A DNA stretch of 64,000 nucleotides, from the NCBI GenBank assembly GCA_015231955.1, contig JADGAN010000013.1, forward strand, positions 1 to 64,000, given 5' to 3'. Of this stretch, positions 2,406 through 31,225 are shown in pieces; the first letter of the stretch is position 1; every line of letters begins with the position of its first letter. The notes under the pieces are model-generated. The model was given only the letters and a program-made list of their open reading frames with translations, was not told the DNA's origin and made no database searches. The DNA comes from Oligoflexia bacterium (GTDB lineage: Bacteria; Bdellovibrionota; Bacteriovoracia; Bacteriovoracales; Bacteriovoracaceae). The position numbers and the translations under genes were made by a program.

Positions 2406-3197
2406 TTATTGTATCTCTTCCTTAGTTATATTTAAATTGCTCAAAGGAAAAAGGTTTATACAAATTTTATACACTTCATTTTTTTCCCCCACCTCTAATG
2501 TTTCGGAAAGTTTTTTTCGAAACTCTCGAATCATCTTTTTTGCCAGTGGTAACTTACTGCGATCAATGGCCATAGTTGAAGAGATAAAATCGCGCTCACT
2601 CACAAAATCACGCTCTAAAGAGGTACGTGCTAACTCTAAATTAAAAGCGTGCGCCTTTCTTAGGGCCACATCGGAAACCTCATCTGTTGTGCTATAGTGA
2701 ATTCCTGTAGGCCACCAAGTTCCATCCTCTTTTTGTGCCAAAAGTCCTAGGCGTAACAAGCGAGCAATGGCGTTTTTTACCTCAAGTATTTTTAAATTTA
2801 AGCGTTTTGCAATCCACTCCTCATCACTCTTAAAATCCACCGTCTCTGCAAGAGAGAGAATGGCAAAGTGATACCACTCCGATATCAGATGAAATTGATC
2901 CATTGTTAGTTCCATCCGCTCTGAAGGAATTCCCACTTGTAACTTTTTGCCATTCCCTTTTATGGGAAACAATCCCAAGATTGCATCCGCCTCTGCTGGC
3001 GACAATGCCAATCGCTCGATCGTTCGCTTCACCAATTTCCTGGACGCTCTCCTTTTGCCATGTAAGATTTCCGAGAGGGCCGAAGGAGAGAGTCCAAGTC
3101 TTCTGGCATATGCACGCAGGGAGTAGGAGCTATTTCTTAGTTGTGCCTCTGCAAACACCTCGTGTAACTTCTTTTGAAAGGCCAGTTGCTCTTGCAT
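2406..3197 (-). CDS. TIGR02147-family transcriptional regulator
   Basis: A 263-residue cytoplasmic protein matching the TIGR02147 family, which is typical of Bdellovibrionota and Fibrobacter. Residues 20-65 hold a helix-turn-helix with the family phrase SLRAYARRLGLSPSALSEIL. The middle part (about 100-160) is a winged-helix-like segment beginning with QFHLISEWYHFAILSL and containing the W-I-A-like phrase EEWIAKRLN. The C-terminal part carries the usual REFRKKLSETLE helix. Family members are presumed DNA-binding regulators but targets are largely unknown. It lies between two genes for secreted DUF4360 proteins on the same strand, so these are the obvious candidate targets. The ATG is preceded by a GGGGA-type ribosome-binding site. 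Confidence 0.85.
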   Translation of the reverse strand: MQEQLAFQKKLHEVFAEAQLRNSSYSLRAYARRLGLSPSALSEILHGKRRASRKLVKRTIERLALSPAEADAILGLFPIKGNGKKLQVGIPSERMELTMDQFHLISEWYHFAILSLAETVDFKSDEEWIAKRLNLKILEVKNAIARLLRLGLLAQKEDGTWWPTGIHYSTTDEVSDVALRKAHAFNLELARTSLERDFVSERDFISSTMAIDRSKLPLAKKMIREFRKKLSETLEVGEKNEVYKICINLFPLSNLNITKEEIQ

Positions 3198-3262
3198 CTT
3201 TCCCCACCTATTTTACTGGTAGTAGTTACAATAAAGAGGAACTACGCCTTTTTTCATGCAAT

Positions 3263-3859
3263 TTAACGGCCACCTCCGCAGCGCCGAAATACAATTTCAA
3301 AATTCACTTCTGGCCCCAGCTTGGCCCAAGCACTCTCGTGATGCTCACTACTTTTCACCATAACCGAGGTATTTGCACGTAGATTAAATTGTTGACCACA
3401 AGCACCCCAAATCACCTCTGAACTTCCCAAATCACCTTCGTACGATCCTACACCTAATGTTCTCTCATAGACAGGTCCTCTGGAACCTGCAAAGAAAATT
3501 TCGGTTCTGATATTGCCCTCACCTCCGACAGGAATCATCGCCTGATAGACCATTTTTTTCATTCTAAATCCTGCTTGATAGCCGCTCGCTACCGTAACAG
3601 GAGCGGCCAAAGCGCAGGCCTTACGATCCACTAGATTCGCCTCCGATGTTTGCGCCATGTAATTCAGCTCTAGCTCGATCAAACCATCCTCTGCAGAGTA
3701 GCTCCATGGAACAGTGCCACCAGGGCATCCTGTGCCTCCAAAGCTGATACTTTCAATTTTCAAAATAGGATTACTATTCTCATTAGCGCGCAGCATTCCG
3801 AGTGAAAAGATTTGCCCCCCAAATACCATGGCGCATGCAATTAAATTTCTCCATTTCAT
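3263..3859 (-). CDS. Secreted DUF4360-family protein
   Basis: The reading frame is open up to 4015, but the real start is most likely the ATG at 3859, which follows AGGAGAG at 4 nt and opens a clean signal peptide (MKWRNLIACAMVFGG...). This gives a 198-residue exported protein. Its mature part begins with the DUF4360 signature GGTGCPGGTVPWSYS, has a central RKAC, and ends with CG....LRANTS and AWAKLG, matching the tail of the protein at 1316-2362. Cysteines are paired in number, consistent with disulphides. No function is known for the family. The two copies bracket the TIGR02147 regulator and are probably diverged duplicates. Confidence 0.75.
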   Translation of the reverse strand: MKWRNLIACAMVFGGQIFSLGMLRANENSNPILKIESISFGGTGCPGGTVPWSYSAEDGLIELELNYMAQTSEANLVDRKACALAAPVTVASGYQAGFRMKKMVYQAMIPVGGEGNIRTEIFFAGSRGPVYERTLGVGSYEGDLGSSEVIWGACGQQFNLRANTSVMVKSSEHHESAWAKLGPEVNFEIVFRRCGGGR

Positions 3860-22122: not shown

Positions 22123-22259
22123 TAATCGCCTCTATAGCGACCACTACTAAGAAACATTAACTTGCCAATAATTTCCTCCCATGATATCCCCAAAATAAGC
22201 GCTACGCAATAAAGCTGCTTCTGTTACCCTATTTGGCTTCAATTAAACCCAGGAAATCT

Positions 22260-22973
22260 ATGAAGAGTGGTGAGCATATCTTAGTCTTAGAAGATGATCC
22301 AGAGTACCTATTTATCTATAAAGACATCTTCGATTCAAAATATCAGATGACTTACCTGACCACTATTGCAGAGTTTGAGCAATTTTTTCAAAAAAAAGAC
22401 TCGCAATACCCGCAAGCAGCAGCAACAAAAATCGACTTGGCAATTGTCGATCTGAAGCTCCCTGATGGCCATTTTCTCAACCACCTGTCTATCAGTAATA
22501 ATCTTGCTCTCGATGTCCCCTTTGTCGTCATCTCTTCCGACTATGAGATCAGCTCTCTTCGCTACTGCCTTGATGAGGGCGCTTTGGACTACTTTGTAAA
22601 ACCCTTTAAACGAAGTGAGCTTATTGTAAAAATTGAGCGCATCTTAAGCAAGAACAAGGAATCTAGCTCGAAATTGCAAAACAATATCCCTGATCCTAAT
22701 CCTCCGCTTACCACGCAGCTTCAACCTTCTATTCCGAGTGATCTCCTCTCCCATTTAACCAAGAAGGAGTATGAAATCATGATGCTCTTTCTTAAAAGCC
22801 CTAACTATACTCTTCACCGGAAGCATTTAGTTGAGATTATCTGGAAAAACGTCTCTGTCTATCCCAAAACCCTTGATGTCCATCTCTATAATCTTCGAAA
22901 AAAAATTCTCTCATTTGGATTTGTTATTACTTACTCGAAGGAAACAACCCAGTGGACACTCAGCAAAATTTAA
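22260..22973 (+). CDS. Response regulator with winged-helix output domain
   Basis: A 237-residue OmpR-like regulator. The receiver domain spans about 6-130: the acidic pair is in LVLEDDPEY, the phospho-acceptor Asp in LAIVDLKLPDG, the Thr/Ser in VVISSDYE, and Lys in DYFVKPFKRSE. A Pro/Asn/Gln-rich linker leads to a C-terminal winged helix (LTKKEYEIMMLFLKSPNYTLHRKHLVEIIW ... KTLDVHLYNLRKKI), typical of Trans_reg_C. I set the start at the ATG at 22260, behind AGGAAA; a TTG at 22233 is in frame. The downstream kinase gene overlaps its end by 22 nt and is almost surely the partner. The YcaO gene converges from downstream. Confidence 0.88.
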   Translation: MKSGEHILVLEDDPEYLFIYKDIFDSKYQMTYLTTIAEFEQFFQKKDSQYPQAAATKIDLAIVDLKLPDGHFLNHLSISNNLALDVPFVVISSDYEISSLRYCLDEGALDYFVKPFKRSELIVKIERILSKNKESSSKLQNNIPDPNPPLTTQLQPSIPSDLLSHLTKKEYEIMMLFLKSPNYTLHRKHLVEIIWKNVSVYPKTLDVHLYNLRKKILSFGFVITYSKETTQWTLSKI

Positions 22974-24658
22974 AGAGAAAAGAGCTGCCTCTCTTAAAAG
23001 ATTTTACCTACTTTGCAAGCATAGATCTTTTCATTATTCAAAACATTACAACAATTGTATGGATCTATGTGCTGTTCAGGCCACATTGGAATGAATGGAT
23101 TTTAGTCTTCTTTGTTGATTTTGTCGCCTTCTTACTCATGACCAAATTTACTGATATTAATCTATTCAATAAAATCTATCCCGATACAAAGATCTACTTT
23201 CCCAAAATCGATTTTGAACAAATTTCAAAATTAAATCCTCATGAAAAATACAATCTGCTCAACTCTATAGCAGAGTTTCCAGCGGCCAGATCCCATTATA
23301 TTTTTTGGACCAATTTTTTTAAAATAATCCCTGGTTTTATTGTACTAGTTTTTTTCTGCCACACTCATGGTGAAGCGTATACTAGTCGTTTGCTCAAAGG
23401 CATCCTTGCAGAAATCATCTGTATCTACTATATGTATAGTTATACTTTTGCCTGCGTTAGCGATAACGTCTCTGATCTTATTAGTAAGCTTCATCAAAAA
23501 TTTGATTTCAAAGAGGCATTTCTTCTCTATCCCTTAAAAACACCTTCCAACTATTTTATGGCCGTTGAAAACATTGCCCTTTTCACTATCTCTATTTTAT
23601 ATATTTGGCTCGTCTTCACCATGCTGCTTACTAATGGTGTCTACGACAAAAAAACAGTTTTTAACTTGTTGGCGATTATTTTTGTTGCCATTCTTAATCT
23701 TGGCAGTATCTATTACCACAATCGAAAATTTTTATTAAAAGGACTGAATCAGATTTTCAACAACATCAAGCAACTAGATCACAAAAACTATAAAATCCTT
23801 CCACTTCATAGCTCGCAACCACTCATGACCTTTGATCAAACCTTTAATAGTTTAGTACAAAAAATTGAAACAAGAGATCGTGCACTTGAAAAATGGCTTG
23901 CCTTAGAGTTGCACACCCAAAAATATAAAAACCTTGGAGAGATTGCTGGGTTAGTGGTACACGATCTCAATGCTCCATTACAGGCCATCGACTATGCAGT
24001 TGATGTTCTCTATGAAGATCATGGATTAAATCAAAATAAATACATCCTCAATATCAAAAACAACGCCGATCGTGCTATTCAATTAGTTCGCTCCATCACG
24101 GCCCGTTTGAAAAACGAGAAAGGCAATGAAGATCATTGCTCCATCAATGAGGCATACACCTACACTATTCAAATTTTAAAATCTCAGTTTTCAGAACAAA
24201 ATATTGAACAGGTACTTTTTTACTTTGATCATCGTCTAAACAACGCTAAGATAAATATCTCAAGAGTAGACTTAATCCATATTTTTTACAATCTTTTTAA
24301 AAATTCTCTTGAAAATTTCCTAGAAAATCCTGAGATAAAAAAACCATTTATTGCTACCTATGGGCACTATGACAGCATCAACTATGAAAAAAATCTTTTA
24401 CTTTTTGATAATGGATCGGGACTTACTCTTAGCGAATTTGACCAAATGACTGATAATGAATCTATGTTAAAAATATCGGGACATAAAGGCCTTGGACTGA
24501 AGCTTACCAGAAGACTCATTGAAAGAAATAGCGGGAAAATAACCATTGTCAATCTTTCAGAAATTTCTGATTTTGTTTTCCCTCCTGAGTTACTTCCACA
24601 CCTGCTTATCGAGAATGCCCCAGGCCAAGGCACAACTTATCGACTAACTCTGAAGTAA
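22952..24658 (+). CDS. Membrane sensor histidine kinase
   Basis: A 568-residue kinase. The N-terminal 280 residues hold about five to six hydrophobic segments, so sensing may happen in or at the membrane. The H-box is GLVVHDLNAPLQAIDYAV, with the phospho-accepting His near residue 336, using HDLN in place of HELR. The ATPase region has the N-box IFYNLFKNSLENF, the G1 box FDNGSGL and the G2 box GHKGLGLKLTRRLIE. It starts with GTG inside the end of the response regulator gene; no ATG occurs near the beginning of the frame. The signal is unknown. It converges on the YcaO gene with a 12-nt gap, but the promoter it controls cannot be read from sequence. Confidence 0.87.
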   Translation: MDTQQNLKRKELPLLKDFTYFASIDLFIIQNITTIVWIYVLFRPHWNEWILVFFVDFVAFLLMTKFTDINLFNKIYPDTKIYFPKIDFEQISKLNPHEKYNLLNSIAEFPAARSHYIFWTNFFKIIPGFIVLVFFCHTHGEAYTSRLLKGILAEIICIYYMYSYTFACVSDNVSDLISKLHQKFDFKEAFLLYPLKTPSNYFMAVENIALFTISILYIWLVFTMLLTNGVYDKKTVFNLLAIIFVAILNLGSIYYHNRKFLLKGLNQIFNNIKQLDHKNYKILPLHSSQPLMTFDQTFNSLVQKIETRDRALEKWLALELHTQKYKNLGEIAGLVVHDLNAPLQAIDYAVDVLYEDHGLNQNKYILNIKNNADRAIQLVRSITARLKNEKGNEDHCSINEAYTYTIQILKSQFSEQNIEQVLFYFDHRLNNAKINISRVDLIHIFYNLFKNSLENFLENPEIKKPFIATYGHYDSINYEKNLLLFDNGSGLTLSEFDQMTDNESMLKISGHKGLGLKLTRRLIERNSGKITIVNLSEISDFVFPPELLPHLLIENAPGQGTTYRLTLK

Positions 24659-24670
24659 ATCATGTATTTC

Positions 24671-25708
24671 TTATACGATAGGATGAATTTCCCAGCTTTC
24701 TATTGCAACTTTAATTCCTACACTCTGGTATTTTTTTCCAAAGATAAGCGGCACTCTATTTCTGGAGATAGCTTTCATGACAACAAATGACTTGGCCGCT
24801 ACTGGGGTTAGATCCACAAAATAGATTTCTGATGGCATTGCACTTGGGTAAACACTCTTCTTTCTATAATGGCGGCCAGAAAGCCACCCCTTAAGCTCTT
24901 CAATTCCTGCACTTCGCAAAAAAATCTCTTGGTGATAAAGAGGTGAAGGTGCAAATGGAGGCAGCTCTATCTCGTTCTCCTCACCTTCTAGAAAAACTAG
25001 CCGTTGCAACATCTCTTGCAATGATTTCTCCATGGCCACTTCAAACACTTGATCTGCAGCAAGCCCATAAACCATGGGCGAGTTTTTACTTGGATTAATA
25101 GGAAAAGCAAATACCCCCAAAACATTTAACGCAGAGTCTGGAGAAATATCTACAAATTTATAAATTTTTATTCTATATCTATCTGCTAAAGCAGTAATAA
25201 CCTCACTTCCAATCTCCTTTGCGGCCCCTACTATCTCTTGCGGCAAAGTCTCACCATACCACGATCGCAAAATTGCATCACGCTCGACAAGCTCCGCTTG
25301 CGCCTTCTCCATGGCCATATTTACATCAGTATGAATTGCAACTCCATTGGATAGGGAATATCTCCATTCACAATTGTCGGAGGAAGGGAAAACTATTTTT
25401 TTCTCAATCACACCTTGGTACTGGTTGAAGCGATTATAAAACTTAAACAGATGCTCTTCGCTAGTTTTTAAAACTTCAGCAATACTTACCCGTTCTAAAA
25501 GCTCATATTGTGAACGAATAACCGCATTCGCTTCTGTTTTCAAGTCAGCAGCACTACCACTCATGATTTCGTTATCATTGTTCAAAGCTTGAGCGCAAAA
25601 TCCTGCAACATTAACTTCAATGTTATTAATTTTTTTCTTTTCAATAAAAACATCAATGGTTTTCCAGTTATGAAAATGGCCACTTACAAAATCATTCTCT
25701 AACATCAT
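24671..25708 (-). CDS. Stand-alone YcaO-domain protein (RiPP cyclodehydratase/thioamidase family)
   Basis: A 345-residue YcaO ATP-dependent enzyme. All three ATP-site motifs are visible: SQYELLER (66-73), the SNGVAIHTD (120-128) and ELVERDAILRSWYG (139-152) pair, and SLQEMLQ (229-235). YcaO proteins activate a peptide amide with ATP to form azolines, amidines or thioamides. It has no fused E1-like or ocin-ThiF partner domain and does not end in the PxPxP tail seen in many azoline-forming enzymes (it ends WEIHPIV). It therefore resembles the stand-alone types, such as those of bottromycin or thioamide pathways. Upstream on the same strand are a 10-codon ORF and a GNAT gene. Two adjacent ATGs (25708, 25705) are possible starts; the Shine-Dalgarno is weak (AAAGAG). 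Confidence 0.88.
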   Translation of the reverse strand: MMLENDFVSGHFHNWKTIDVFIEKKKINNIEVNVAGFCAQALNNDNEIMSGSAADLKTEANAVIRSQYELLERVSIAEVLKTSEEHLFKFYNRFNQYQGVIEKKIVFPSSDNCEWRYSLSNGVAIHTDVNMAMEKAQAELVERDAILRSWYGETLPQEIVGAAKEIGSEVITALADRYRIKIYKFVDISPDSALNVLGVFAFPINPSKNSPMVYGLAADQVFEVAMEKSLQEMLQRLVFLEGEENEIELPPFAPSPLYHQEIFLRSAGIEELKGWLSGRHYRKKSVYPSAMPSEIYFVDLTPVAAKSFVVMKAISRNRVPLIFGKKYQSVGIKVAIESWEIHPIV

Positions 25709-25736: not shown

Positions 25737-25772
25737 AATGCATGGGAATTTGTTTATTAATTCCCATGCATT
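25737..25772 (-). terminator. Perfect 14-bp hairpin between 10-codon ORF and YcaO gene (attenuator-like)
   Basis: The arms AATGCATGGGAATT (25772-25759 as read on the minus strand) and its exact complement (25750-25737) enclose an 8-nt loop. A short T-rich tract (TGTATTTTT) follows on the minus strand. It begins 11 nt after the stop of the 10-codon ORF and ends 28 nt before the YcaO ATG. It could be a partial terminator or an mRNA-stabilising hairpin that favours expression of the small ORF over YcaO. The loose T tract makes full termination unlikely. Confidence 0.6.
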
Positions 25773-25783
25773 GCAAGTTCAAA

Positions 25784-25816
25784 TTACCAAGTTACTAATG
25801 CATATCTCTTTTTCAT
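25784..25816 (-). CDS. Candidate 10-residue peptide (RiPP precursor or leader peptide)
   Basis: A minus-strand ORF of ten codons encodes MKKRYALVTW and ends in TAA. Its ATG is preceded by AAAGGAG (25829-25823) with a 6-nt spacer, which is one of the better ribosome-binding sites in this region and much better than that of the YcaO gene. It lies 32 nt after the GNAT stop and 75 nt before the YcaO start, followed by a perfect hairpin. The layout (very short ORF, hairpin, modification enzyme) recalls mccA of microcin C, although no MccB-like adenylating enzyme is present. Thr9 and the amide backbone would be the only plausible YcaO targets; there is no Cys or Ser. A regulatory leader peptide is the main alternative. 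Confidence 0.5.
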   Translation of the reverse strand: MKKRYALVTW

Positions 25817-25848
25817 TTTTCACTCCTTTGAAATAGAGGTTAGTAAAA

Positions 25849-26475
25849 TCACAAGCAAAACTGAGTATTAAATACTTCGTTTGCCTTGTTATTATTAAAT
25901 TTTGTTAATGATGTAAGCACTCCCCAGCGATCAGTAGCAACCGTACCACTCACACTAAAGCCCATTCTACAAAGTCTAATCATTTGCTTTTGATTATTGA
26001 CTGAGATATGTGCTTCTATCCTTTCAACTTGATGTTGTTCTAAAATTTCAATCACCCTTTTAGCGGCCGCTTCAAATAAATTTTTCCCCCGATGTGCTTT
26101 TTCAATCAAGCAGTAACGGAGATAATAGCTACCCCAGTCGTAAACATTGCCAGAAAGGTATCCTATAATTTCATCTCTATAGGTGAACACAAAATGATCA
26201 ATAACATATTTATAATAGTCACTCTTATATTCATTACTGCTATTATAAAAAAAATTATTTCCAATTGCGTTCTGCTGACTTCTTTTTAAAAAAGCCAATG
26301 CTTCTAACTCCCCACCCACTCGAAATCCATACTCCTCAAAAAACTTATCATTGTCTGGAAAATAATTTCTCCACTCTATTTTAAAAATTTTCCTTGTTAG
26401 ATGTTCTGTTTTATCATCGTCAATGGATTTTGTAGCTTTTGTATTTTGCGCAGGAAGAGCTAAAAACTTATTCAT
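25849..26475 (-). CDS. GNAT-family N-acetyltransferase
   Basis: A 208-residue protein whose C-terminal 130 residues are a GNAT domain: FTYRDEIIGYLSG (strand 4), YCLIEKAHRGKNLFEAAAKRVIE (acetyl-CoA pyrophosphate loop, R/Q..G.G replaced by HRGKNL), and VNNQKQMIRLCRMGFSVSG near the end. The first 75 residues are charged and of unknown fold. It is the first gene of the minus-strand unit GNAT, 10-codon ORF, YcaO. In RiPP clusters GNATs either modify the peptide N-terminus or give self-protection (MccE in microcin C). Which applies here is not known. It is divergently transcribed from the radical SAM gene across 150 nt. Confidence 0.8.
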   Translation of the reverse strand: MNKFLALPAQNTKATKSIDDDKTEHLTRKIFKIEWRNYFPDNDKFFEEYGFRVGGELEALAFLKRSQQNAIGNNFFYNSSNEYKSDYYKYVIDHFVFTYRDEIIGYLSGNVYDWGSYYLRYCLIEKAHRGKNLFEAAAKRVIEILEQHQVERIEAHISVNNQKQMIRLCRMGFSVSGTVATDRWGVLTSLTKFNNNKANEVFNTQFCL

Positions 26476-26625: not shown

Positions 26626-28155
26626 ATGAAAAAAATTATATTAATTAACTACAGTGGATATCAATTCACCACCAATACTTTTATCCCCGACAACTCTCTT
26701 GCAGTATTGGCGGCACTTCTTTCCCAACATGCATTCCCAGTGGAAGTATTAGACCTACACAATATGCACGATATGAAATTAATTGCGAAAAATTTCCATC
26801 AATCCTCTGCTGAAGAATTGTATAGCTCCATTCAACAGCAAAGGCCTTTCGATCAACATCATCTTAACCGGTATAAAGAATCGATTGATCAAGCTGAGAC
26901 ACTCTATATGGAGAGCATCTTCAGTAAAATCATCGATAAAATCAAGCACGAAGATGTACAATACATAGGATTTAAATTATGGATGGGGCGAGGACTTACC
27001 AGCATCATCACTCTTGCAACTCAAATCAAAAAATCGTTTCCACATATCACGTTGATTGGAGGCGGTCCTGCTCTCCAATATATGCAACACCACTTCAGTA
27101 AACTTTGCAACCTTTTTGACCATCTCCTCTATGGCGAAGGAGAATACGCCTTTCTCAAAATTCTAGGTATAAGCGCACACCCCTTTCACTCTTCTCATCT
27201 AGATCATTTTCCACCACCACTTTATAGCAAAGAAATTTTTTCAAACCTCCACCATTTCCATAAAATGAGAATCATCGACGACTCTCGCGGTTGCTTCAAC
27301 GATTGTGCCTTTTGCTCTCACTCTCATCTCATTGGAAAAAATGTTCGTACTCGCCAACCCCGGCGCATCGTCGATCAAATGCAAAAAATGGCTTATGAAG
27401 AGGGCATCACTTTTTTTAGATTTTCCGGTTCAAATACCCCATGGCATTTAGTCACTGCTATTGGAGAAGAGATCTTATCTCGCAATCTAAAAATCAATTA
27501 CTCTATCTTTTCTTCGCTCAATAATGCCAATGCCAAAGATTTTCCCATGCTCTCACACTCGGGCCTTCGAAGCATCTTTTTTGGGGTAGAGAGTGGTGAT
27601 GCATATTTATTAAAAGTCATTCATCAAAAATCCAATATCAGCAACGCTCATACCATCAAACTCATTCAAGCTGCAATGGAAGCACAAATTTTTGCCTGCC
27701 TTTCGCTAATCTATCCCTCTCCCTTTGAAGACAGCAACTCCACTCAAAATAGCTTGCAGCTCTTACAACAAATTTTCAAGCACCAAAAACTAGGATCCGT
27801 GCTCGTAATGCCTCCCTTCCTCTCACCTGGTTCTCGCTGGTGGAGTGAAATGGCCCAATTTGGTTTCGCTTTTATAGATGGAGTAGATCAGCAACAATAC
27901 ATTCTCAATATGGCCACCAAGTGCTACGACTACTTTTTCATAGAAGATTCTATTGCCAACATGGGATACACGCTCAATAGCAAAAGCATGTCCACCCTTA
28001 TGAGCGAATGCGCACACTTTATAAAGACGCTCACCACAGATCATGGCATCTCAACCAACCTCTCTGAAACCACCTATATGCTCTCTCAACTCTACGATCT
28101 TCCAGCAGCGACTTTCACGGCAACAACCACCTACTCCCTCCTGACAGGAAAATAA
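26626..28155 (+). CDS. B12-binding-type radical SAM protein
   Basis: A 509-residue radical SAM enzyme. The first 190 residues form a Rossmann-like, cobalamin-binding-type domain (PDNSLAVLAALLSQHAFPVEVLDLHN, LIGGGPALQY, LLYGEGEYAFLKIL). The radical SAM core follows with the cluster cysteines in RGCFNDCAFC (C223, C227, C230), the RFSGSNTP strand, and FFGVESGDAYLLKVIHQK, the AdoMet-binding GxE-like motif. No DxHxxG is seen, so base-off cobalamin binding is not certain from sequence. Such enzymes methylate or otherwise alter unreactive carbon, including in RiPPs such as bottromycin. It is divergent from the YcaO unit and shares its promoter region. A GAGGG ribosome-binding site precedes the ATG. 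Confidence 0.85.
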   Translation: MKKIILINYSGYQFTTNTFIPDNSLAVLAALLSQHAFPVEVLDLHNMHDMKLIAKNFHQSSAEELYSSIQQQRPFDQHHLNRYKESIDQAETLYMESIFSKIIDKIKHEDVQYIGFKLWMGRGLTSIITLATQIKKSFPHITLIGGGPALQYMQHHFSKLCNLFDHLLYGEGEYAFLKILGISAHPFHSSHLDHFPPPLYSKEIFSNLHHFHKMRIIDDSRGCFNDCAFCSHSHLIGKNVRTRQPRRIVDQMQKMAYEEGITFFRFSGSNTPWHLVTAIGEEILSRNLKINYSIFSSLNNANAKDFPMLSHSGLRSIFFGVESGDAYLLKVIHQKSNISNAHTIKLIQAAMEAQIFACLSLIYPSPFEDSNSTQNSLQLLQQIFKHQKLGSVLVMPPFLSPGSRWWSEMAQFGFAFIDGVDQQQYILNMATKCYDYFFIEDSIANMGYTLNSKSMSTLMSECAHFIKTLTTDHGISTNLSETTYMLSQLYDLPAATFTATTTYSLLTGK

Positions 28156-28365: not shown

Positions 28366-29292
28366 ATGAATAATAAAAACTGGGATCTTTTTATGAACAA
28401 ACTATTCTTGCGAAAAAAATTGAAATACAGTTGCAACAGCATGCTTGCAATGATGCTTTTTGCAAGCATCATCTCTAGTTGTACCTCTAAGGTGCATCCT
28501 GTGACTCAAGCAACTACACCATCAAGCAGCAGTACACCCACCTCATCTCCTACAGACAATACATACACCACTATTCCTAGTAACAGCAACAACAGCAATG
28601 GTTCTAATGCTGTTGTCGCAATCACACCAACACCCTCTACCAATTCAGGATTGGCCCACAATATAGTGTATGGAGATGCTACAGGGAGTTCTGCTAAAAC
28701 TTGTGATGCCTATGGAATTGACACGGCCACCTCCTCATGGAACTACGATTACCATCGCATACCTGTAGTCGCGAATGGAAATTTATCTGGTGGAGTTATG
28801 TGGAGTACTGCAAACAATCTGCAAGCAGAAGTGTTTGGAGCAGACCAAGAGTATTTGCGAACAGATTCTACCTTGCAAGTACGTGTCGTTGCCAAACCAG
28901 GACCACGCGGCTGTGACCTTATTAACACACCTCCATCCAGCGTTACCAACCTTGGTGTTCGCTACTGGATTAGTTATGGAGAACTAGAAGTTACCGTTGG
29001 TGTTCGCTTAAGAGATAGCAATAGCAACTCTTATAATAGCATTATCAAATTCTCTGGGGTAAAAACCAATGAGTGCTCTCCACCTCGCTACTTTCAGAGC
29101 ATTCCCCGTAGTGGAGGCGCACTAGCACTTGATATCCTTAACGTGAAATCCAATTATGAGTGTGTAAACAAATATGGCATCGGCATTGGAGGAACCTCTC
29201 CTTACTGTCCCTACGCCTATCTTCAATGGCTAGGTTGCTGGGAGATAGAGTTGCAGATCGCTACCGACGATACTAAACGTATTCCAGAGTAA
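28366..29292 (+). CDS. Putative lipoprotein with Ser/Thr/Pro-rich linker
   Basis: A 308-residue envelope protein of unknown function. A basic, hydrophobic leader ends in ASIISSC, a plausible lipobox with Cys at about residue 39, so it is probably a lipoprotein. A stretch of about 60 Ser, Thr, Pro and Asn residues then acts as a spacer. The C-terminal 200 residues form a domain with six to eight cysteines (SAKTCDAYG, GCDLIN, TNECSPPRY, YECVNKYG, PYCPYAYLQWLGCWEIELQ) and likely disulphides. Start at 28366 follows AGAGGGA; ATG at 28393 is an alternative. A 210-nt gap separates it from the radical SAM gene, so co-regulation is not implied. Confidence 0.6.
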   Translation: MNNKNWDLFMNKLFLRKKLKYSCNSMLAMMLFASIISSCTSKVHPVTQATTPSSSSTPTSSPTDNTYTTIPSNSNNSNGSNAVVAITPTPSTNSGLAHNIVYGDATGSSAKTCDAYGIDTATSSWNYDYHRIPVVANGNLSGGVMWSTANNLQAEVFGADQEYLRTDSTLQVRVVAKPGPRGCDLINTPPSSVTNLGVRYWISYGELEVTVGVRLRDSNSNSYNSIIKFSGVKTNECSPPRYFQSIPRSGGALALDILNVKSNYECVNKYGIGIGGTSPYCPYAYLQWLGCWEIELQIATDDTKRIPE

Positions 29293-29496
29293 TAAAATTG
29301 CACTTGTCTCAAAATGGGACAACTATTTTCCATTTTGGGAAAACGTCCATGTAAGAAGCATTGACCTGTGTGGACGGCATATCAACTATCAAGAACTTAA
29401 ACTACTCTCACACCCTTTTTCCTCGAACAATCGATTGGTATGAATTTTGCTAAATAAGAAACAAGAATATTAACCTTTCACCTAAGAGGGTAATCT

Positions 29497-29874
29497 ATGA
29501 CATCACTTCAAGAGCGCGTCCTACAGTACTATATCCAGGTTCACAAAAATCCAACAATCAAATTCATGGCCGCTGATACCAAGATCCAAATTTCTAGATT
29601 ATTTCGCATTTTAAATGGGCACGAAATGAAGATATCGGAGTTTGAAAAATTTCAGGAATCGATTCAAAAAAAAGCTCAGCTCAATCATGAAGATTATAAA
29701 AAACAAACGGGATCTAGCTTTGATTATTTATCTGCTAAAGGGCAGAACGATATTGCCAAGATTGTACAACGAAAAGCAAAACTTACGGCAATTCACGGTG
29801 GACACCACATAAACGACACTAATGCATCTCAAAATGTCATTTTATCAGAGCTAAGGATTGTTGATCATGGATAA
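29497..29874 (+). CDS. Small HTH-like protein, first of a three-gene unknown operon
   Basis: A 125-residue protein without signal peptide or membrane span. Residues 10-60 (YYIQVHKNPTIKFMAADTKIQISRLFRILNGHEM) read as a helix-turn-helix resembling the N-terminal part of TIGR02147 regulators, but this is a weak match by eye. The C-terminal half is basic. The ribosome-binding site is AGAGGG. It overlaps the next gene by 8 nt, and that gene abuts the third, so the three are surely translated as a unit. I cannot assign a function; a DNA-binding role is a guess. Confidence 0.55.
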   Translation: MTSLQERVLQYYIQVHKNPTIKFMAADTKIQISRLFRILNGHEMKISEFEKFQESIQKKAQLNHEDYKKQTGSSFDYLSAKGQNDIAKIVQRKAKLTAIHGGHHINDTNASQNVILSELRIVDHG

Positions 29875-30394
29875 GCTTTTGCCAGTTGAGCGAATCGTAT
29901 TGGAATCACTTGCACGCGGATCAAAGGGGACGCTAGAAGTTACACTCGACACCTCAATACCCATGGCCATCGCACATAATATCTTGCAACATTTTCTATT
30001 ACAAGGTCTGGTAGTATTTTCTACTTCTGAACAAAAATACTCCCTTTGCTTAAGTGAACTAACTGCTTGTGCAAAAAATTTCAACTCTAAAGAGGGTAAA
30101 AAACATGAAATCTGTGACCTCTTTGAGGCCTTAGCAATGCTTGGTCTGCAATTAATCCCTAAGAAAAAAAGTTCCTATGGTAGACCACAGCTTAAAATGC
30201 GTAAAGTTTGGTTGAATTACGAGGATGAAATTCAAGTGAACCAACTGCTCTACAACCTTGAAATGCTTGTTGATAGGGCCGTTCACTCACCCAAAAAAAA
30301 CTCTACTGACTCTAAAATCTCAGATCAACGTTTAATCTTATGGGGCCATTCCCATTATGGTTCGCTAGTTAAAACAACATTGAAAACAATTTAA
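29867..30394 (+). CDS. Winged-helix-like protein of unknown function
   Basis: A 175-residue cytoplasmic protein. The first 65 residues (PVERIVLESLARGSKGTLEVTLDTSIPMAIAHNILQHFLLQGLVV) look like a winged helix with the recognition helix at about 33-47. Such a domain forms the middle part of TIGR02147 regulators, so the first two genes of this operon together may mirror that architecture split in two. The rest is charged, with a central KKKSSYGRPQLKMRKVW. The start is the ATG overlapping the previous stop region by 8 nt. No catalytic motif was found. Confidence 0.55.
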   Translation: MDKLLPVERIVLESLARGSKGTLEVTLDTSIPMAIAHNILQHFLLQGLVVFSTSEQKYSLCLSELTACAKNFNSKEGKKHEICDLFEALAMLGLQLIPKKKSSYGRPQLKMRKVWLNYEDEIQVNQLLYNLEMLVDRAVHSPKKNSTDSKISDQRLILWGHSHYGSLVKTTLKTI

Positions 30395-31225
30395 ATGATC
30401 CTACTACCCCTTGAAAATCATTCCAAACTTAAGGCAACTCTAAGCGATCTGCAAAAAGATTTTCATCTTTTTATTCCCTGGCCCTTATTGCTTCAAGCTT
30501 ATCTGCCTCTCTTAACATGTCATACCCAGAGCAGTTACACGATTATCGGTATGAAAACTCTTGCCGAATTGAATCTGACTTCAAAGAACAATCTTCTTTT
30601 TCTTCACCACGCTCACCTCTGGTACAATCATTTCCCCGAAGAGTGCTACTGCTTCGATGATTTGCTGGATCGATTCACCATTTTAGTATCCATAGCTTCT
30701 AGTACAGTGCTAACCAGTAATGCCTTCTCCGAGTGGGTTACTAATGGCAATCGTGCGTATCGCGTCTTATCCGATCCTTTCACCAGTAATAAAGCAGCTT
30801 TCCACTTTCGGAGCTCTCGCTCCAAGTCACTCTTCCTTAAAGAAATTAGGTGTAATTTAAAACCCAAAACGATTGTTTTTACCTCTGATCAGCAATTTAT
30901 TGTCGATCTCAAAAACATCCTAACCCCTTTTGCTAGTGATGAGCTAACCATCTCTTCGCTCGCTACCCCGACCCAAAGTAAAACTCCGCTCAATCTTTAT
31001 CTCTTTTTTGAAAAAGATCACTTCTCCCTTTTTATCGCAGATTTGATTGCGCTCTCATCATCATCTTCATCATCTTCTTCTTCCCTCGCTATCTTTCTCG
31101 ACATGGATGAGGAGCACACATCCAAATCACTTTCCAGATCTTCTTATTCTCAAAGATCTCAAGCGATCTTGCGAGAAATTTACCTCACCTTAAAAATTAA
31201 ACTAAACGATTTTTTCGGGATCTAA
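30395..31225 (+). CDS. Unknown cytoplasmic protein with poly-serine tract
   Basis: A 276-residue protein with no recognised domain. It is rich in Leu, Phe and Ser, has few charged runs, and contains a run of nine serines near residue 224 encoded by TCA/TCT repeats (31056-31085). Hydrophobic stretches exist but none is a convincing membrane helix. It starts one base after the second gene's stop, which supports translational coupling and a shared role. The alternating strands around 165-240 (KTIVFTSDQQFIVDLKNIL) might form a Rossmann-like or receiver-like fold, but no conserved active site is visible. Function unknown. Confidence 0.5.
   Translation: MILLPLENHSKLKATLSDLQKDFHLFIPWPLLLQAYLPLLTCHTQSSYTIIGMKTLAELNLTSKNNLLFLHHAHLWYNHFPEECYCFDDLLDRFTILVSIASSTVLTSNAFSEWVTNGNRAYRVLSDPFTSNKAAFHFRSSRSKSLFLKEIRCNLKPKTIVFTSDQQFIVDLKNILTPFASDELTISSLATPTQSKTPLNLYLFFEKDHFSLFIADLIALSSSSSSSSSSLAIFLDMDEEHTSKSLSRSSYSQRSQAILREIYLTLKIKLNDFFGI

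Follow-up and report, generated by a model that had tools for sequence, protein, structure and literature searches.

The window, i.e., the whole analysed stretch of 64,000 nucleotides of an Oligoflexia bacterium, holds a reading frame of only ten codons between the genes for a GNAT acyltransferase-like protein and a YcaO protein. This arrangement raises the question whether so short an ORF is a gene at all and, if so, whether its peptide is modified by the neighbouring YcaO, regulates the YcaO gene or serves another purpose.

The ten-codon ORF in the window

The ORF, ATGAAAAAGAGATATGCATTAGTAACTTGGTAA on the minus strand (25816-25784), reads MKKRYALVTW-stop. A single sense codon (AAA) separates its ATG from an in-frame TGA at 25822-25820, which excludes a longer N-terminus and fixes the ATG as the start. 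The GNAT gene lies upstream on the same strand and ends 32 nt before the ORF. The elements listed in the earlier note, namely the ORF, an AAAGGAG 6 nt upstream, a perfect hairpin and then the YcaO gene, were all confirmed on the window sequence (Table 1).

The arms of the hairpin span 25772-25759 and 25750-25737. The site was scored as terminator-like, and its region folds with z = -3.8, none of 200 shuffled sequences being equally stable. Given the tail TGTATTTTTG on its 3′ side, the hairpin is a plausible, not a strong, intrinsic terminator. The Rfam search at the hairpin gave no match to a known RNA element.

Table 1. Coordinates of the features around the ten-codon ORF in the window.
Feature	Position	Strand	Remarks
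Response regulator, C-terminal DNA-binding domain	22233..22973	+	PF00072, PF00486; beside YcaO in most Bdellovibrionota loci
Histidine kinase, long N-terminal sensor region	22952..24658	+	PF02518; regulator/kinase pair convergent with YcaO
YcaO protein, 345 aa, stand-alone, no fused E1-like part	24671..25708	-	Pfam PF02624, E 2.4e-15
Perfect 14-bp hairpin, 8-nt loop, T-rich tail, terminator/attenuator type	25737..25772	-	Between precursor and YcaO gene
Ten-codon ORF MKKRYALVTW, proposed RiPP precursor	25784..25816	-	Conserved as M[KR][KR][KRQ]?[FY]Axx[STC]-hydrophobic, 20 loci
In-frame TGA	25820..25822	-	Immediately 5′ of the ORF
Shine-Dalgarno AAAGGAG	25823..25829	-	6 nt 5′ of the ATG
GNAT acyltransferase-like protein, upstream cassette gene	25849..26475	-	Pfam PF00583, E 3.8e-10; kept directly upstream of the peptide
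B12-binding radical SAM protein	26626..28155	+	Divergent from GNAT; equivalent neighbour in L015, L016, L018 and L065

Conservation of the peptide at related YcaO loci

One ten-codon ORF with a Shine-Dalgarno sequence would not be significant by itself; what makes it so, on the sequences compared here, is that its residues are conserved at 20 loci. The protein search of related genomes revealed clear YcaO relatives at 31-39% identity, and the DNA in front of them gave MKKRYATLSF and MKKKFALLSF at the matching position. The wider scans covered 84,980 species, each represented by one genome, 369 genomes of the window's phylum and 284 genomes of the phylum of a Polyangiaceae genome. Within the window's phylum, 16 genomes gave a YcaO match with E < 1e-28 and all others 5e-14 or worse, and the tree separates this clade from other YcaOs (97/97).

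In total, 20 related YcaO loci from distantly related genomes of Bdellovibrionota and Myxococcota have an ORF of 9-10 codons at the same place, and their YcaO proteins mostly share 26-36% identity with that of the window. This count comprises those clade loci whose upstream DNA could be read and holds the ORF, L027 and L067 being cut at contig ends; the named homologues are mostly from metagenome-assembled genomes. The clade YcaO of G633 (L104, 5270-6283, G633:C610) is isolated, and neither the peptide nor a GNAT or HO-like gene accompanies it.

The 20 peptides are MKKRYALVTW (window), MKKRYATLSF, MKKKFALLSF (L015), MRRKFALYSF, MKKQFALICF (L018), MKKRFALNCL, MKKRFALGTL, MKKRYATISF, MKKKFAQISF, MKKFALGTL, VKKKFAHMSF (GTG start), MKKYGFVTV, MKKFAQYCI, MRKKYAHASM, MKKKYAKICT, MKKRFAQSCI, MKKKFAQHCL, MKIKFAAICF, MKKKFAQLSF and MKKFATGTF. 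They follow the pattern M-[KR]-[KR]-[KRQ]-[FY]-A-x-x-[STC]-hydrophobic, with Ser, Thr or Cys as the penultimate residue in every case and free variation at positions 7 and 8. All 20 ORFs have an SD-like purine motif in front of them, in most cases at a distance of 4-8 nt; for L022 and L029, a G-run lies closer to the start than the motif that was scored.

Across the peptide ORFs pN/pS is 0.39, synonymous changes exceeding non-synonymous ones most strongly at K2, F/Y5 and A6, and codons are switched synonymously for Ser (AGC/TCN), Arg (AGA/CGT) and Leu (TTA/TTG/CTN). The residue identity of the peptides is 0.50 vs 0.43 +/- 0.01 with shuffled nucleotide columns. These comparisons indicate that selection acts on the peptide residues rather than on the codons. 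The comparison of homologous YcaO/GNAT loci proposed in the earlier note thus came out in favour of the ORF, as its SD, its length of 9-10 codons and its residue pattern are all kept through synonymous changes.

The specificity of the peptide was assessed with a degenerate pattern of ten residues, which matches 13 of the 369 genomes of the phylum: in ten at the clade YcaO locus and in three elsewhere, in a chance-like manner. Counted by genome, the association with clade YcaO genomes has a Fisher p of 2e-13, a value of a kind that the kinship of genomes inflates; the pattern was composed after the peptides had been seen, and the result describes near-confinement to the locus, not an independent discovery. 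The reversed pattern gave four matches, none of them in clade genomes. The off-locus candidates were dismissed: those in G117 and G301 have no strong SD, the former lying antisense within a longer ORF, and that in G011 contains an internal stop.

That the ORF is an untranslated product of chance near an SD-like sequence has practically no probability left. Its small size is all that speaks for such an origin; against it stand 20 loci that share both the position of the ORF and a residue pattern almost absent elsewhere, and the conservation and the pattern search led to its rejection. By the evidence of these sequences, the ten-codon gene is real, under selection and bears every sign of translation.

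The hairpin recurs as well. In 17 of the 20 loci a stem-loop directly 3′ of the peptide stop is more stable than shuffled sequences (mean z -3.8), the stem sequences being unrelated with none obviously shared; a convincing hairpin is absent in L020, L024 and L096. The distance from the peptide stop to the next gene is 41-122 nt in the loci where it was measured. A hairpin in this position and the near-invariant length of the ORF would suit a regulatory leader peptide, the alternative put forward in the earlier note, by which translation of, or ribosome stalling on, the ten codons controls the hairpin and read-through into the HO-like or YcaO genes, the peptide itself staying unmodified. There is also a precedent in mccA, where ribosomes affect termination (PMC6495379). 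However, selection on residues instead of codons disfavours it, as does the position of the ORF after the GNAT gene and not first on the transcript. Moreover, residues 7, 8 and 10 vary although they are near the ribosome active site as synthesis ends, and attenuation leaves the retention of the penultimate S/T/C and of the aromatic-Ala pair unexplained. As the full explanation, a leader peptide is considered improbable; such a role is compatible with that of a precursor, and both can coexist.

Enzymes of the cassette and a proposed precursor role

The conserved cassette consists either of GNAT, peptide, HO-like enzyme and YcaO or of GNAT, peptide and YcaO together with a B12 radical-SAM gene. 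In the window, YcaO fold and motifs of the ATP-site type are both found: the AlphaFold model (pLDDT 87.7) has YcaO structures as its best PDB matches (6ci7, 6pe3, 6gri and LynD; archaeal YcaO, McbD, LynD), and the conserved motifs E69xxER, SNG, ExxER and ExxQ align with TruD, LynD and MJ1094. The GNATs of the cassettes form a distinct conserved family. Their likening to MccE in the earlier note found no support, the PDB sequence relatives being general GNATs and N-terminal acetyltransferases with no MccE among those listed. An overlap of 4 nt between the end of the GNAT gene and the start of the peptide gene, present in four loci, suggests translational coupling.

The B12 radical SAM protein is a possible alternative tailoring enzyme, since clusters hold either an HO-like enzyme or this neighbour; all four other loci with the radical-SAM gene (Table 1) are without the HO-like enzyme. 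The HO-like protein is found in most other clusters and not in the window, for instance directly behind MKKYGFVTV, MRKKYAHASM and MKKKYAKICT and in front of YcaO. Its model (pLDDT 95.5) matches 3DDE, CADD, UndA and BesC, and its conserved Glu, His and Asp residues (EExxH, E140, H171, D175 and H178) would be suited to a two-metal site. It resembles these two-metal enzymes in fold, whereas the sequence identity to them is only 12-17%. Peptides of the radical-SAM type all end in an aromatic residue and those of the HO-like type have mixed endings, the numbers being small. A single clade of radical-SAM-type clusters is not supported, since three changes are required on the tree (the misframed rows L096 and L067 being disregarded). 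The cluster of L016 has two GNATs of one family, the additional one (2879-3508) lying beyond the radical-SAM gene. In the window, four proteins without Pfam match (308, 125, 178 and 276 aa; 28366-31225) adjoin the radical-SAM gene.

YcaO chemistries include thioamidation and other backbone reactions besides azoline formation, and TfuA or E1-like partners are common in the known thioamide and azoline YcaO pathways. No TfuA was seen beside YcaO, the neighbours being GNAT, HO-like or radical-SAM protein, regulator and kinase. No E1-like or ocin-ThiF/RRE partner was detected among the profile-scanned window genes beside YcaO, and none recurs in the neighbourhoods, whose genes were partly profile-scanned. 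Likewise, the cassettes share no protease and no exporter.

An encoded precursor beside a modifying enzyme, the two conserved together, is the mark of a RiPP and is found at the 20 loci, to which the pattern is nearly confined. Taken as a whole, the reading of the ten-codon gene as the precursor and substrate of the neighbouring YcaO is held with high confidence. The peptide would combine a short recognition part, MKK[KR][FY]A, with a variable core of four residues, xx[STC]-hydrophobic, fused within 9-10 residues. The statement of the earlier note that there is no room for a separate leader is modified by the conserved MKK[KR][FY]A in front of the variable tail, which may represent a very short leader-like part.

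According to the proposed mechanism, GNAT and peptide genes would be co-transcribed and transcription would mostly end at the hairpin behind the peptide gene, as it does in mccA-mccB; the peptide would consequently be made in excess over the enzymes. YcaO would then activate the peptide backbone with ATP, most likely by cyclodehydrating the invariant penultimate Ser, Thr or Cys, the residue that azoline TOMMs require and that all 20 peptides offer. An azoline at this residue is given somewhat better than even chances; in the window peptide the site would be Thr9, with an expected mass change of -18 Da. The product would be completed by a second enzyme, i.e., the B12 radical-SAM protein in the window and the HO-like protein in other loci. 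The GNAT would acylate a Lys or the N-terminus of the peptide, self-protection being another possible role.

The same genes could also build a small cofactor-like molecule on the peptide and then release it, as PQQ is released from its precursor peptide. The YcaO-substrate step would be retained and only the product would differ, with the HO-like or radical-SAM enzyme and YcaO acting on the conserved Tyr/Phe-Ala. Conservation of [FY]-[AG], the relation of the HO-like fold to CADD and PqqC and a cassette without exporter would fit; however, the C-terminal half differs from species to species, and HO-like and radical-SAM enzymes interchange, unlike what a single shared cofactor would lead one to expect. 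This scaffold role is rated slightly below even the leader peptide.

Among the closest known systems, microcin C resembles the locus in layout. Both have a very short ORF with a strong SD, a hairpin and an ATP-using modifying enzyme, and a GNAT is part of both. The likeness claimed in the earlier note extends beyond the window, as short gene, hairpin and modifying enzyme recur in 17 of the 20 loci with unrelated hairpin sequences. In the mcc operon, the hairpin and the ribosome on mccA yield abundant monocistronic precursor mRNA by ribosome-induced termination (PMC6495379); we infer a similar transcript logic, with excess precursor mRNA, for the YcaO peptide loci. Membership in the microcin C family was rejected: the gene downstream of the peptide is YcaO or HO-like, and the MccB-type adenylating enzyme is lacking, as the earlier note had remarked. 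Furthermore, unlike in microcin C, the peptide pattern is unrelated, the GNAT lies upstream and no exporter gene recurs.

RiPP genes of this size exist, as biarylitide precursors have five residues (PMC13417212, PMC12951456). Like bytA (5 aa), the gene described here is too short for ordinary gene callers and leaves a leader of very few residues; the biarylitide enzyme is a cross-linking P450 instead of a YcaO and the motif is different. The YcaO-dependent RiPPs (azol(in)e TOMMs such as microcin B17 and cyanobactins, bottromycin-type products and thioamitides) share the YcaO family motifs and Ser, Thr or Cys in the proposed core. In contrast to them, the present loci have a precursor of 9-10 residues without a separate long leader, and no E1-like or ocin-ThiF partner or TfuA was recognised. 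The locus thus apparently encodes a RiPP without the defining partner enzymes of the microcin C, thioamide and standard TOMM families that is microcin C-like at the transcript level.

In open-licence papers, no earlier description was found of YcaO with short precursors or HO-like enzymes, of YcaO from Bdellovibrio or Bdellovibrionota, or of the peptide strings. Judging from the comparisons above, the ten-codon gene very probably supplies one of the shortest peptides known from which a chemically modified natural product is made. If the precursor reading is true, the peptide is the shortest natural YcaO substrate as far as could be found, and neither a separate long leader nor a partner protein is necessary for a YcaO to recognise its peptide. 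The system would be simple to test, with one synthetic decapeptide and one enzyme, and the pattern would allow a search for further RiPP genes of this family, which at 33 bases escape ordinary gene callers.

The sensor kinase and a possible signalling role

The N-terminal sensor region of the histidine kinase, searched alone, was found in all 16 genomes of the phylum with a clade YcaO vs 4 of 353 others (Fisher p 1e-24, again a type of value that is inflated by the kinship of genomes). For G021 and G025, the kinase was matched on a different contig, that of YcaO breaking off near YcaO or its neighbours. Among the four genomes with the kinase and no clade YcaO, the contig of G355 breaks off within the regulator gene that follows the kinase, and that of G263 shortly behind a partial match to the kinase. 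Kinase and regulator without YcaO seem genuine only in G358 (L099, G358:C176) and G359 (L100, G359:C41), which belong to one genus; here the pair lies near a small HTH-like gene with no peptide cassette, possibly due to cassette loss or as listening only.

From this co-occurrence the kinase may have a part in signalling or in cluster control, i.e., the two-component system would respond to the product or switch the cluster on. A signalling product is a tentative proposal, which the co-occurring kinase would make testable in Bdellovibrio-like bacteria. Held just as loosely is the comprehensive view of an undescribed RiPP class of Bdellovibrionota and Myxococcota, in which a fused mini-leader and core of 9-10 residues, a stand-alone YcaO and exchangeable second enzymes would yield an acylated heterocyclic, species-specific signal read by a dedicated sensor kinase.

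The genome of the window has a second kinase/regulator pair (L101, 6359-8754, G000:C43) with no YcaO, GNAT or HO-like gene alongside. In the Polyangiaceae loci L023, L024, L027 and L105, the gene behind YcaO encodes a protein of about 1750-1840 residues instead of the two-component pair, and in three of these four loci this large protein matches the kinase weakly.
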